Origin: Arcticibacter pallidicorallinus
Lineage (GTDB): Bacteria; Bacteroidota; Bacteroidia; Sphingobacteriales; Sphingobacteriaceae
Direction: 5' to 3'
Length of the DNA stretch: 64,000 bases
NCBI RefSeq assembly: GCF_003002875.1
Contig: NZ_PVTH01000003.1
Span: 124,001-188,000 of the forward strand
The notes under the pieces are model-generated. The model was not told the DNA's origin, ran no database searches, and worked only from the letters and a program-made list of their open reading frames with translations. A program made the translations under genes and the position numbers. Shown here piece by piece: positions 49,023-53,196 of the stretch (its first letter is position 1; the number at the start of each line of letters is the position of its first letter).

Positions 49023-50594
49023 TTAAAAATCCTGATACTTATTTCGGAAGGATGCCTTCAATCCAAAGGCAACAAACTGCTGTTTATCATTAATCTGATC
49101 ATTGCTTTCTTTTCTATAGGTATAGCCTAGCTCTAATCTTAAGTTATTTTTCGGATTAAGCAAATACGCCAGGTTTGTATTAGCATAAAAAAGCTTGGTC
49201 TTCAACCCATGACCGATCTCTACCCCATAGTCGTCAATACGCGTAGTATAATCCAGGTATATATTCTTACCGTAATTTAGATCATTTATATCAAGGCCAT
49301 AAGTAGATACATTGGTCTGTACCTTAGCTTGCCAGCGATTATATCTATAACTGAAAACAGCAAGATACTCCCGGAAATTCGCGCCAAAAGGATGCGCCAA
49401 AGGCTCATTGAAATGCCCGTAGTTCTTTATACGCTGACTTGCGGAATAGGTATAAGGTCGCGCCGCATTATACTCGACAGTCGCATTTAAGTTTGAAACC
49501 TTAAACAGATCAAACGCCCGTAGCCCTATTTGCGCACCATGCTTGTTCGCCCAGTAGCCGTCTCCAGCAAATACCTCTTTTAGGGTAAACTCATTTATGG
49601 CAATCTGCCCGTAAGCAACGTAGTTCTTACTTAGCTTATAGCTACCATTTAGACCAAGCAAAAGCTTGTCAGGAGAGCCGTTATTATACTGAGTGGGCAA
49701 CAGGAATAGCAAAGGAACCGCATAGCTTAGCTCAGCACCCCTAGGAGCCCACATGACATTCTCAAACAACCCCAAGCTTAAGCGATCATTAACATTCCAG
49801 TCCAGGTAGTGAAAAACACCGTACTTCCTGTCATAGGGCGTCTCATCATCGAAAGGAATATCATACAAGTCCTGAAACTGCGCCCACATGGCGGTATACT
49901 GAACACGGCCCAAAGTACCCGTAACTTTCAAATAAGGATAGTTAAAGGCATAATCGGATAACAGCAGAGACCGGTAGCCGTTACCTATGAAGTTCTTTCC
50001 GTAACCCAGTTGAACGTTGATATATTTTGAAGGAGTGTAAGATAGGTTGGCCGTCGAATTAGAGTAATCAAATCCGTCATCTCCATAGAGCTTCGCATGT
50101 CCCTGACCAGGAATCACCTTGGTTCTTCTTACGTATGCGTCGTAGTACTCTGGATATACTCCCTGATTTTCACTGATCGACGCACTAAAAGAGAATTTCG
50201 ATCCAACGCGCCCCCCCACCTCGAGTTCTCGTGTATTGTTCCAGATAGTACGACCACCTTGTTTTCCAACCCACATATCCGGTAAAAAGTCAAAATTTAC
50301 CTCAAACTCGTCAGTCTTGACTTCAACAAGATGCTCTGTGAAAATCTTACGAAAGATCCAATTCTTACTATGCCATTCACTAACAGGAAGTTCCCTGATC
50401 GTAAGAGAATCCACCCTGGCGCCTTGCATAACGATTGGCTGCATTGCTGTATGGACTGACTTATCACTCAACCGGTAAAGACTATGGTTAGGATTGGTGT
50501 TTGATATCGGAAGAAGTGTAGATTGTGCAAACCCGACATTTACAAAAAGGCACAGTATTAGAGTTGATATAAATCTGAACATCAATTCACGCAT
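49023..50594 (-). CDS. Wzi/RemB-like outer-membrane beta-barrel protein
   Basis: A 523-aa secreted protein with a signal peptide (about 1-23, ending VGFAQ) and many amphipathic strands in the pattern of capsule-assembly Wzi barrels; in Bacteroidota, related proteins are called RemB. Examples are NVQLGYGKNFIGNGYRSLLL (about 195-214) and the aromatic C-terminal strands. Wzi holds capsule polysaccharide to the surface. Its ATG overlaps the stop of the wecA-like gene by one base (TAATG), so the first sugar transferase and the surface anchor are co-translated. It is the last gene of the glycan locus in this window. Confidence 0.8.
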   Translation of the reverse strand: MRELMFRFISTLILCLFVNVGFAQSTLLPISNTNPNHSLYRLSDKSVHTAMQPIVMQGARVDSLTIRELPVSEWHSKNWIFRKIFTEHLVEVKTDEFEVNFDFLPDMWVGKQGGRTIWNNTRELEVGGRVGSKFSFSASISENQGVYPEYYDAYVRRTKVIPGQGHAKLYGDDGFDYSNSTANLSYTPSKYINVQLGYGKNFIGNGYRSLLLSDYAFNYPYLKVTGTLGRVQYTAMWAQFQDLYDIPFDDETPYDRKYGVFHYLDWNVNDRLSLGLFENVMWAPRGAELSYAVPLLFLLPTQYNNGSPDKLLLGLNGSYKLSKNYVAYGQIAINEFTLKEVFAGDGYWANKHGAQIGLRAFDLFKVSNLNATVEYNAARPYTYSASQRIKNYGHFNEPLAHPFGANFREYLAVFSYRYNRWQAKVQTNVSTYGLDINDLNYGKNIYLDYTTRIDDYGVEIGHGLKTKLFYANTNLAYLLNPKNNLRLELGYTYRKESNDQINDKQQFVAFGLKASFRNKYQDF

Positions 50595-51775
50595 TAGTTC
50601 TTGGACACTTTATCAAGTATCTTCTCAGCAAATGTCTTGCTATCGTCCTCAACTTTAGCTATCATTGGCAGTTTGACAGATTCATTAAATTGAGGAGACT
50701 CATCTAAAAGCTCCTCTTTCAAGCTGATTTTTCTGCTAAATAGGTAGATAGAAAGCGCTGTATTGAGAAGAATAATCATAAATATCAAAATCCCAACCAA
50801 TTGGTTACTACCTACGCTTTGGAAAACTAATGCCGTAGCAATGAATATAGCAGCCACCACAGAAAGAACTGCAGTCGCCTGCATGTGTGTCAATCCCAAA
50901 GCAAGCATTCTATGGTGCAAATGATTTCTATCGGCCTTAAAAGGCGATTGATTATTCACAATACGGATCGCAAATACTCTTAGTGTATCAAAAAGAGGTA
51001 AGATCACAATAGCCATAGCTAATGCCGGTGCAGATGTTATGGAAGTAAAACCGAGATCGATAATATTTCCAGATGAAGTATTTATAAATTGAATACTTAA
51101 TACAGCAGCCAAAAACCCAACCATGAGGGAGCCGCAATCTCCCATGAAAATTCTCGCAGGAGATATGTTATGAATAAGGAAACCAGTAAGCGATCCAGCC
51201 AAAGCCAGACAGACGGAAGTCCATCCTAACTCTCCCGCGATGAAAAAGAGATACGCATAAACCAGTGAAAAAATTAACCCTAATGTTCCGGAAAGCCCAT
51301 CTATTCCATCTATTAAATTATATGCGTTTACAACCCCAACAATGGTTAAAACGCTAAGGGCTATACTAAATGGATAACTTAACTCATAAACTCCCATGAA
51401 GCCACCAAGATCCATCAGTCTGACATCTGCCATAATTGTGATAATAAAAGCAGCTATAAACTGGGCTATAAATTTTTTCATAGGGTCAACTCCTATTATA
51501 TCATCTTTCAGACCTATCATAAAAATGACGATTCCACCACTCAATAGATAGTTCGCCACTTTGAGAGTTGATAGATCAATAAAAATTGCTAGGGAAAAAA
51601 GAAATCCTGAAAATATAGCTAAACCACCCAAATTCGGAACAATTCTCTTATGGATTTTTCTATCTTCTGAAGGTGCATCGAAGAGACGCTTGCGTATTGC
51701 TATTGTTATCAATGGGGAAATCGATAAGGCAACAGATATAAGGCTTGTGATATAGATAAGAAGATTTGTTTTCAT
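50594..51775 (-). CDS. MraY/WecA/TagO-type undecaprenyl-phosphate sugar-1-phosphate transferase
   Basis: A 393-aa multi-spanning membrane enzyme with the family motifs VNAYNLIDGIDGLSG (about 150-164), FMGDCGSLMVGF (about 210-221; catalytic aspartate region) and the histidine cluster HLHHRMLALG (about 283-292). It transfers a HexNAc-1-phosphate (probably GlcNAc-1-P) from UDP to undecaprenyl phosphate, the first step in building a lipid-linked glycan. The Wzi-like gene is coupled downstream. The upstream gap of 245 bases contains the 21-bp inverted repeat and a -7 element. Confidence 0.9.
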   Translation of the reverse strand: MKTNLLIYITSLISVALSISPLITIAIRKRLFDAPSEDRKIHKRIVPNLGGLAIFSGFLFSLAIFIDLSTLKVANYLLSGGIVIFMIGLKDDIIGVDPMKKFIAQFIAAFIITIMADVRLMDLGGFMGVYELSYPFSIALSVLTIVGVVNAYNLIDGIDGLSGTLGLIFSLVYAYLFFIAGELGWTSVCLALAGSLTGFLIHNISPARIFMGDCGSLMVGFLAAVLSIQFINTSSGNIIDLGFTSITSAPALAMAIVILPLFDTLRVFAIRIVNNQSPFKADRNHLHHRMLALGLTHMQATAVLSVVAAIFIATALVFQSVGSNQLVGILIFMIILLNTALSIYLFSRKISLKEELLDESPQFNESVKLPMIAKVEDDSKTFAEKILDKVSKN

Positions 51776-51827
51776 ACAAATGAAAATGATTGCGCGGGTG
51801 ATTTTATGGAAATAGATGAATAATTAT

Positions 51828-51902
51828 TTAATGTCTACGTGGATTTATGAACAAATGAAACATAATTTTGTTTAAATTGTTATAAATCCACGTAGACATT
51901 AA
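51828..51902. repeat. Perfect 21-bp inverted repeat with 33-base centre
   Basis: The arms at 51828-51848 (TTAATGTCTACGTGGATTTA plus T) and 51882-51902 are exact reverse complements over 21 bases and enclose 33 bases. There is no U-tract on either strand, so it is not an ordinary terminator. It lies between the last glycosyltransferase (stop at 52021) and the wecA-like gene (ATG at 51775) and would form a long RNA hairpin in the leader of that gene. The centre contains TAATTTTG on the plus strand (51863-51870), which also fits the -7 consensus. Confidence 0.9.
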
Positions 51903-51923
51903 CTTTCCTATGAAACGATCTTG

Positions 51924-51931
51924 CAAAGATA
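51924..51931 (-). promoter_or_regulatory. Possible promoter -7 element for the wecA-like gene
   Basis: The minus strand reads TATCTTTG, an exact TAnnTTTG match. It lies about 150 bases upstream of the wecA-like ATG, so a transcript from here would carry the 21-bp hairpin in its leader. No -33 element is evident 19-21 bases upstream. Confidence 0.35.
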
Positions 51932-52020
51932 GTGATTGCGAGGAAAACTTGTCCATCTGGGAACTACTTTTTGATAACCTCGACCATTCTTTCGATTTGG
52001 ATTGATGACAATTTTTGGCT

Positions 52021-53196
52021 CTATATGTAGTTTTCTTCTAACATGGAATATAATTTTGTCTTATAGTTTTCCCACGTATATAGCTCCATCATAAGCTTCT
52101 TTGCGTTCTCACCAATATGTTCATAGCCGGCCCGATCATTCATAACCTGTGTTATATGGGCTTTCATTAATTCCGGTGTATCTGCAAGTAAATAATGTAT
52201 TCCTTCAATGGCTCCTTGTATTGGCGAGGCGGCTTTAGTTGTTAAGAGATTAACCTTTCCTAAGGCCATCGACTCCAATATCTTATTCTGTATGCCCCCC
52301 CCAGTCTGCATTGGAGATACAACAAGAGCACATGAATTCAGCACTCTATAAGGATCGTCCAAATATCCTGTCACATGTATGTTAGCAAATTTCGATTGAA
52401 GTGACAGTACTTTTTCGACCGGGTTGCTTCCAATAATATAGAAGGACATTTCAGGAAGCTCCCCTAACACATGATTTACAAACCATAGGACAGCATCAAT
52501 GTTCGGTTGGTAGTCCATCTTGCCAAAGAACGCAACGGAGTTCATGTACTGATCCTCTTTATAAACATATGAGAATAAAGCATTATTTACTCCATTAGGA
52601 ATCCAGCGTGTAGAACCAAATTTCGAATAATACTTACATTCATCATAGTTCACAAAGAATGTGTTTCTAAGAGACTTGACACACTCCTTCTCATATGTTA
52701 ATAATCTTTTGATTTCTATTCGATAGATTAATTTCCAAAACCAAGATGAAACCTTCTTTCTGGAGGAAAGATAGTTAAGTCCTATGGAATCAACTATATC
52801 CAAAAAGATCGGTTTTGAAAAACCCTCAACATATGGAACTAGTCGGACTAAGTTCACGATTGCAAAATCGACTGAACTAAACATCAGGTTTAGTTTTTGT
52901 TTCACTTCTGGAAAGTAATAGTATCGTACTTGCAACGGAGTACTAGTAAAAAAAAGAGCTGCTAACACGTTAATCGCAAACCGCATTCTTGATCTCACAA
53001 AAATCTTATAAGAGTCACAATTGCGCGTTATAAAATCGCGTGCATCAGAAGACATCCTTTCATCTGTAATTATTATTAATTGAATACTATACCTTTCCGA
53101 CAACACTTTAATCATATTATAGCTCTTCAATCGATCTCCACCTATTGGAGGAAAAGGAATCCGAGAAACCAGAAGAAGACATTTTTTTTTGTTCAT
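52021..53196 (-). CDS. Family 4-type glycosyltransferase
   Basis: A 391-aa GT-B enzyme. The N-terminal domain begins LLLVSRIPFPPIGGDRLKSY and the C-terminal domain has SPMQTGGGIQNKILESMALG (about 310-329), which is the donor-binding E-x7-E-like region of GT4 enzymes. It should add one sugar to the lipid-linked repeat unit at the cytoplasmic face. The ATG overlaps the preceding gene by 4 bases. An A9 tract on the coding strand lies at codons 3-5. It is the last gene of the glycosyltransferase run. The sugar is not predictable. Confidence 0.85.
   Translation of the reverse strand: MNKKKCLLLVSRIPFPPIGGDRLKSYNMIKVLSERYSIQLIIITDERMSSDARDFITRNCDSYKIFVRSRMRFAINVLAALFFTSTPLQVRYYYFPEVKQKLNLMFSSVDFAIVNLVRLVPYVEGFSKPIFLDIVDSIGLNYLSSRKKVSSWFWKLIYRIEIKRLLTYEKECVKSLRNTFFVNYDECKYYSKFGSTRWIPNGVNNALFSYVYKEDQYMNSVAFFGKMDYQPNIDAVLWFVNHVLGELPEMSFYIIGSNPVEKVLSLQSKFANIHVTGYLDDPYRVLNSCALVVSPMQTGGGIQNKILESMALGKVNLLTTKAASPIQGAIEGIHYLLADTPELMKAHITQVMNDRAGYEHIGENAKKLMMELYTWENYKTKLYSMLEENYI

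Follow-up and report, generated by a model that had tools for sequence, protein, structure and literature searches.

Inverted repeat between glycosyltransferase and wecA-like genes of Arcticibacter pallidicorallinus: a candidate intercistronic RNA hairpin

The inverted repeat and its predicted fold

Our question was what a long inverted repeat, located between two glycan genes of Arcticibacter pallidicorallinus, might do. The repeat is in the window, by which we mean the whole 64,000-nucleotide stretch of DNA analysed, within a gap of 245 nt. The gap is flanked by two minus-strand genes, one ending at 52021 and the next starting at 51775 (Table 1). Hence, the repeat is 118 nt past the stop codon of a glycosyltransferase gene and 52 nt ahead of the start of a wecA-like gene. 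The product of the latter has its best named match in Pararcticibacter amylolyticus (61%). A previous sequence-only reading had placed the repeat where a run of glycosyltransferase genes meets the gene for the initiating transferase, and the domains encoded on either side (PF13692 upstream, PF00953 downstream) agree. The repeat is also exactly where that reading put it, with arms perfectly complementary over 21 nt and 33 nt between them. It is real and far beyond chance. Base composition predicts 1.4e-6 such repeats per 64 kb, and 9e-5 per 4.1 Mb, for loops of 3-60. In the window, it is the sole perfect inverted repeat with an arm above 12 (loops of 3-80); the next are two with arms of 12.

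Table 1. Positions, in the window, of the inverted repeat and of features nearby
Feature	Position	Strand	Details
3' arm in minus-strand RNA	51828..51848	-	perfect 21-bp inverted repeat
5' arm in minus-strand RNA	51882..51902	-	perfect 21-bp inverted repeat
A/T-rich centre, 33 nt	51849..51881		13/16 self-complementary with one base skipped, 7/16 ungapped
TATCTTTG, TAnnTTTG -7 match	51924..51931	-	box at -12 to -5 would give a start at ~51919, ~17 nt before hairpin
TAATTTTG, -7 match in centre	51863-51870	+	sequence match
23-codon ATG-to-TAA frame	51828..51899	-	starts 3 nt into hairpin, ends at hairpin's last base; putative coding
wecA-like initiating glycosyl-phosphate transferase, downstream gene	50594..51775	-	Glycos_transf_4, PF00953, 3.7e-40
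Group 1 glycosyltransferase, upstream gene	52021..53196	-	PF13692, 9.3e-16

The minus-strand RNA from 51815 to 51915 is predicted to fold at -36.6 kcal/mol (z = -10.7), and none of 200 shuffles was equally good. The predicted fold has the perfect 21-bp stem, 5 bp more past one bulged base (26 bp), and then an inner helix of 5 bp. Once one base is skipped, the centre is self-complementary (p = 0.0018, 20,000 shuffles). Hence, the hairpin continues inward, imperfectly. Note that ungapped self-complementarity of the centre is not above chance (p = 0.33). Fold and position together bear out one part of the earlier reading, a potential RNA hairpin of high stability at the junction of the glycosyltransferase run with the gene for the initiating transferase.

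Rho-independent terminators combine a stable RNA stem-loop after a gene with a U-rich tract right after the stem. The stem-loop is present here, 118 nt past the stop codon. The tract is not; in the last 8 stem bases and the 10 following, the longest T run is 2 for the minus strand and 3 for the plus strand. Rfam provided no match above gathering score in the 64-kb window. A search with 351 bases returned 12 matches, all below gathering score, and 10 of these were to microRNA models. The best was mir-137 (42.2 bits, E 7.4e-8, gathering score 56.7). Since mir-137 is an animal microRNA model, and the score is below gathering, we take this match to be what a long hairpin yields. Membership of an Rfam family was rejected.

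Perfect hairpins at gene ends in this genome

We surveyed perfect hairpins, with arms of at least 11 and loops up to 40, in 41 stretches of the genome amounting to 864 kb, window included. Under a crude gene model, where the longest frames set starts and some frames may be false, there were 90 such hairpins. Convergent gaps had 27 of them, co-directional gaps 32 and divergent gaps 4; another 25 fell within frames and 2 at edges. Densities per kb were 2.08 for convergent gaps, 0.95 for co-directional gaps, 0.23 for divergent gaps and 0.03 for frames. Elements of 3' ends show such a distribution; it is from position that we infer a terminator role for the surveyed hairpins. Among the co-directional hairpins, 22 of 32 start within 40 nt of the preceding stop codon. 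No T run longer than 3 was found for 12 of these 22, and the other 10 had runs of 4-7. Note that T runs were scored in the last 8 stem bases and 10 following, and were compared among these hairpins only. The T count of our hairpin (7/18) is within the range of 1-11 for the stop-proximal co-directional group.

The sequence-only reading had argued that, with no U-tract, the hairpin is not a normal terminator. The U-tract is indeed absent. The argument built upon it is not supported, since 12 of 22 stop-proximal hairpins, assigned to gene ends by position only, similarly have no T run above 3. Hence, a 3'-end role is compatible with the lack of a U-tract. At the gene ends of this genome, long hairpins followed by few U residues seem to be nothing unusual and, as the survey suggests for this genome, an absent U-tract alone is no sign of an unusual element. 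A limited literature search found no mapped terminators lacking a U-tract in Bacteroidota, and PMC12207403 has no occurrence of 'Bacteroid'.

The position of the hairpin, 118 nt past a stop codon and 52 nt before a start, is atypical for a gene-end hairpin. Only 7 of the 32 co-directional hairpins are more than 100 nt past the stop. Ours is one of these, and motifs of repeat families are borne by at least 4 of the remaining 6. The 33-nt spacing between perfect arms is also large, and counts against a 3'-end reading. Allowing loops up to 60, there were 8 perfect arms of at least 21 in the surveyed stretches. Five had motifs of two repeat families. The remaining three, all motif-free, were our hairpin and two at gene ends, one at L122:6586 (21 nt past a stop codon) and one at L124:10115 (convergent), which speaks for a 3'-end role.

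Hairpins between cistrons that stabilise the message, or undergo RNase III processing, are a known class. Our hairpin resembles these in being a long perfect duplex between same-strand cistrons, and the genome encodes an RNase III domain, as well as a Rho domain. Terminator hairpins of the I-shaped type, which in PMC8355165 become L-shaped when extended by a poly-U trail, are similar in having a single strong stem after a gene with no U run following. However, our hairpin differs from the I-shaped type in its distance from the stop codon and its spacing. We propose an intercistronic RNA hairpin that causes partial termination, or processing or end protection. Transcription and all functional steps we infer, and we give the proposal an even chance of being correct.

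A leader of the wecA-like gene as the main rival

The main rival is a leader element. Here, a promoter at 51924-51931 would drive a 5' leader of the wecA-like gene, specific to this lineage, with the hairpin first and acting as attenuator or 5' stabiliser. In Flavobacterium psychrophilum the sigma-A -7 consensus is TAnnTTTG according to PMC9723704, which also gives the position of the -7 box. A minus-strand -7 element was the reason the sequence-only reading put the hairpin in a leader. The match exists; TATCTTTG, at 51931-51924, is the only exact minus-strand match in the gap and is just upstream of the hairpin, which would begin ~17 nt into the RNA. The placement in a leader depends on this single, near-chance match. 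There are 73 occurrences of TAnnTTTG in the window, counting both strands (0.57 per kb per strand). Hence, ~0.14 are expected per strand in the gap by chance, and the match is weak evidence. Furthermore, the 28 nt before the site contain no TTG, so no -33 element is visible. Our hairpin is nearer the next start than the previous stop, as is the case for 8 of the 32 co-directional hairpins, and this favours a leader.

The 23-codon frame that overlaps the hairpin is also consistent with a leader. It shares its reading frame with one of 42 codons that starts at 51956, has AGGA 6 nt before its ATG, and closes as the hairpin does. Ribosomes on this frame could possibly open the stem. However, the AGGA carries little weight, because, according to the introduction of PMC9723704, translation in this group begins in a way other than by Shine-Dalgarno use. 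A more specific version is a lineage-specific translational attenuator, where ribosomes on a short frame of about hairpin length would open the stem, and so set expression of the glycan-initiating transferase. We regard this as very improbable.

Leaders of Bacteroides capsule loci are read by UpxY, a NusG paralogue. The parallels are a glycan locus in a member of the Bacteroidota and a second NusG-domain protein in the genome. The differences are that our hairpin is inside a gene run, rather than at its head, and that the NusG-domain protein is encoded elsewhere, on contig C2, which also tells against a leader. This protein (L154:1252-1821; contig C2 of G000, ~325774-326052) has 189 aa and its gene is divergent from a neighbour, presumably for a polysaccharide-export protein, judging from its sequence. 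It is perhaps a specialised paralogue serving another glycan locus; nothing ties it to the hairpin site.

A conserved leader of wecA-type genes should be retained upstream of related genes. We compared the 400 nt upstream of the match start at 30 wecA-like loci, our own included, chosen from 110 (six from a set of 80 and 24 from a set of 30). Among the 29 comparison loci, of which L003 and L092 are the same place, the longest perfect arms were 6-10, versus 21 bp at our locus. Imperfect stems at these loci were judged by 100-nt fold energy alone. The strongest folds were between -16.2 and -35.5, compared to -36.6 at our locus, and the lowest value, close to ours, was for L094. In G005, the congener with the closest wecA-like protein (73%), the upstream sequence is different and has no stem. 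Since no arm of at least 11 is upstream of the wecA-like gene at the 29 other loci, a conserved leader family of wecA-type genes was rejected. The absence of a comparable stem at these loci fits an element tied to the gene junction, and not to the wecA-like gene. Relatives of the upstream glycosyltransferase (E up to 1e-30) were found in 2 of 200 other genomes; no comparable hairpin follows either, the longest perfect arms being 9 and 6. Separately, another congener has its wecA-like gene in two tandem copies, 58% and 62% identical to that in the window (G004:C106:160450-162943). We consider a leader possible, though less likely than the intercistronic role.

Copy number, mobility and inversion

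The sequence-only reading had asked for a search with the arm sequence, since a dispersed or locus-linked family would support a mobile or regulatory element. Allowing up to 3 mismatches in the 21-nt arm, the 4.12-Mb genome contains our two arms and no further place. On this basis, a dispersed family was rejected. Locus linkage fares no better, as none of the 29 other wecA-like loci has a comparable perfect arm. When the surrounding 251 nt were compared with the genome by BLAST, we found the locus itself on both strands and four matches of 16-31 nt (E 0.48-0.90). A 17-nt core, with one mismatch, was present in none of 59 other genomes, 5 congeners included; of the 60, only our genome has it. 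The reversed control of this core pattern gave one match in each of two genomes.

A wider search compared the 75-nt element with 399 genomes of the family, our own included. This DNA search scored two candidates per genome, and so has limited sensitivity. Outside our genome, 11 genomes had partial matches, 12 in all and 21-42 nt long. Their E values were 2.1e-5 to 9.9e-4 on a single-genome basis, from which ~0.4 would be predicted over 399 genomes, so the matches exceed the prediction. None of the 12 covers a whole arm and all overlap the A/T-rich centre. Moreover, 10 of 12 are inside frames of at least 200 codons, and no perfect arm longer than 8 is present within 40 nt of any of them. For these reasons, we take the partial matches to be driven by composition.

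Mobility offers another explanation, in which the hairpin is, or is the footprint of, a mobile palindrome, REP-like or otherwise, with its sole copy here. Long palindromes do occur dispersed in the genome, in two families at least, and these can also be far from stop codons. However, the target has the motif of neither, and no other copy of its arm at 3 mismatches. REPs, like our hairpin, are extragenic palindromes, but usually have >100 copies per genome according to the abstract of PMC2817692. Furthermore, a search of the genome for Y1_Tnp (PF01797), the RAYT-type transposase domain sought, gave 0 matches; the control search was positive in 5 of 14 genomes. The footprint of a small mobile element, suggested previously, thus has neither a second copy nor this domain to support it. 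The viral collection contained no exact 17-mer match, and by this search a viral origin was rejected. We consider mobility unlikely, with little chance of accounting for the hairpin.

The two palindrome families were observed as follows. One, with core ATAAGTCCGACTT...AAGTCGGACTTAT, is represented by 18 exact core matches, spread over 12 places of this genome (reversed control 0), with arms up to 29 bp and no Y1_Tnp domain in the genome. Examples are L161:3506-3573, L165:4250-4297, L124:1834-1877 and L175-L192, with a variant at L163:6467-6530. The other has units GTGAGGCCAC / GTGATGCCAC, with 11 GTGAGGCCAC and 8 GTGGCATCAC matches in the 864 kb sampled; examples are L128:4871-4950, L159:6991-7057, L172:5530-5588, L174:3307-3368 and L168:13710-13757. 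A further hairpin, at L133:18612-18658, has arms that are themselves palindromic (GTTCCACGTGGAAC twice), and is 9 nt away both from the stop codon before it and from the start that follows.

A palindrome may also arise by mutation. The hairpin could be a functionless product of template switching, a quasi-palindrome, consistent with its single copy, its absence from the relatives searched and its quasi-palindromic centre. Conversely, its stem is perfect over 21 bp, and gene ends are where stems of this kind cluster in this genome; we find this origin improbable. Perfect inverted arms could also mark a site for DNA inversion. The plus-strand -7 match that had been noted in the centre, TAATTTTG, is present, and flipping would change 19 of the 33 bases. 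However, the arms occur nowhere else in the genome. Invertible promoter segments of Bacteroides are far longer than 33 nt, and the spacing here is far below theirs. Inversion looks unlikely, and is the least probable explanation considered.

We return to the intercistronic hairpin. The stem would fold once the minus-strand transcript of the glycan operon is made. It would then most likely act where the glycosyltransferase message ends, by partial termination, and might also or instead block 3'-to-5' exonucleases or serve as an RNase III site. The upstream glycosyltransferase run would consequently be made at one level, and the wecA-like gene, with the one following it, at another. Complete termination would leave the wecA-like gene in need of a promoter inside the 52-nt gap before its start; this gap has only a one-mismatch -7 match (51784), and such matches occur at 7.6 per kb. 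The hairpin matters little by itself. If it sets the ratio of the glycosyltransferase run to the initiating transferase, it would give surface-glycan synthesis one point of local control.
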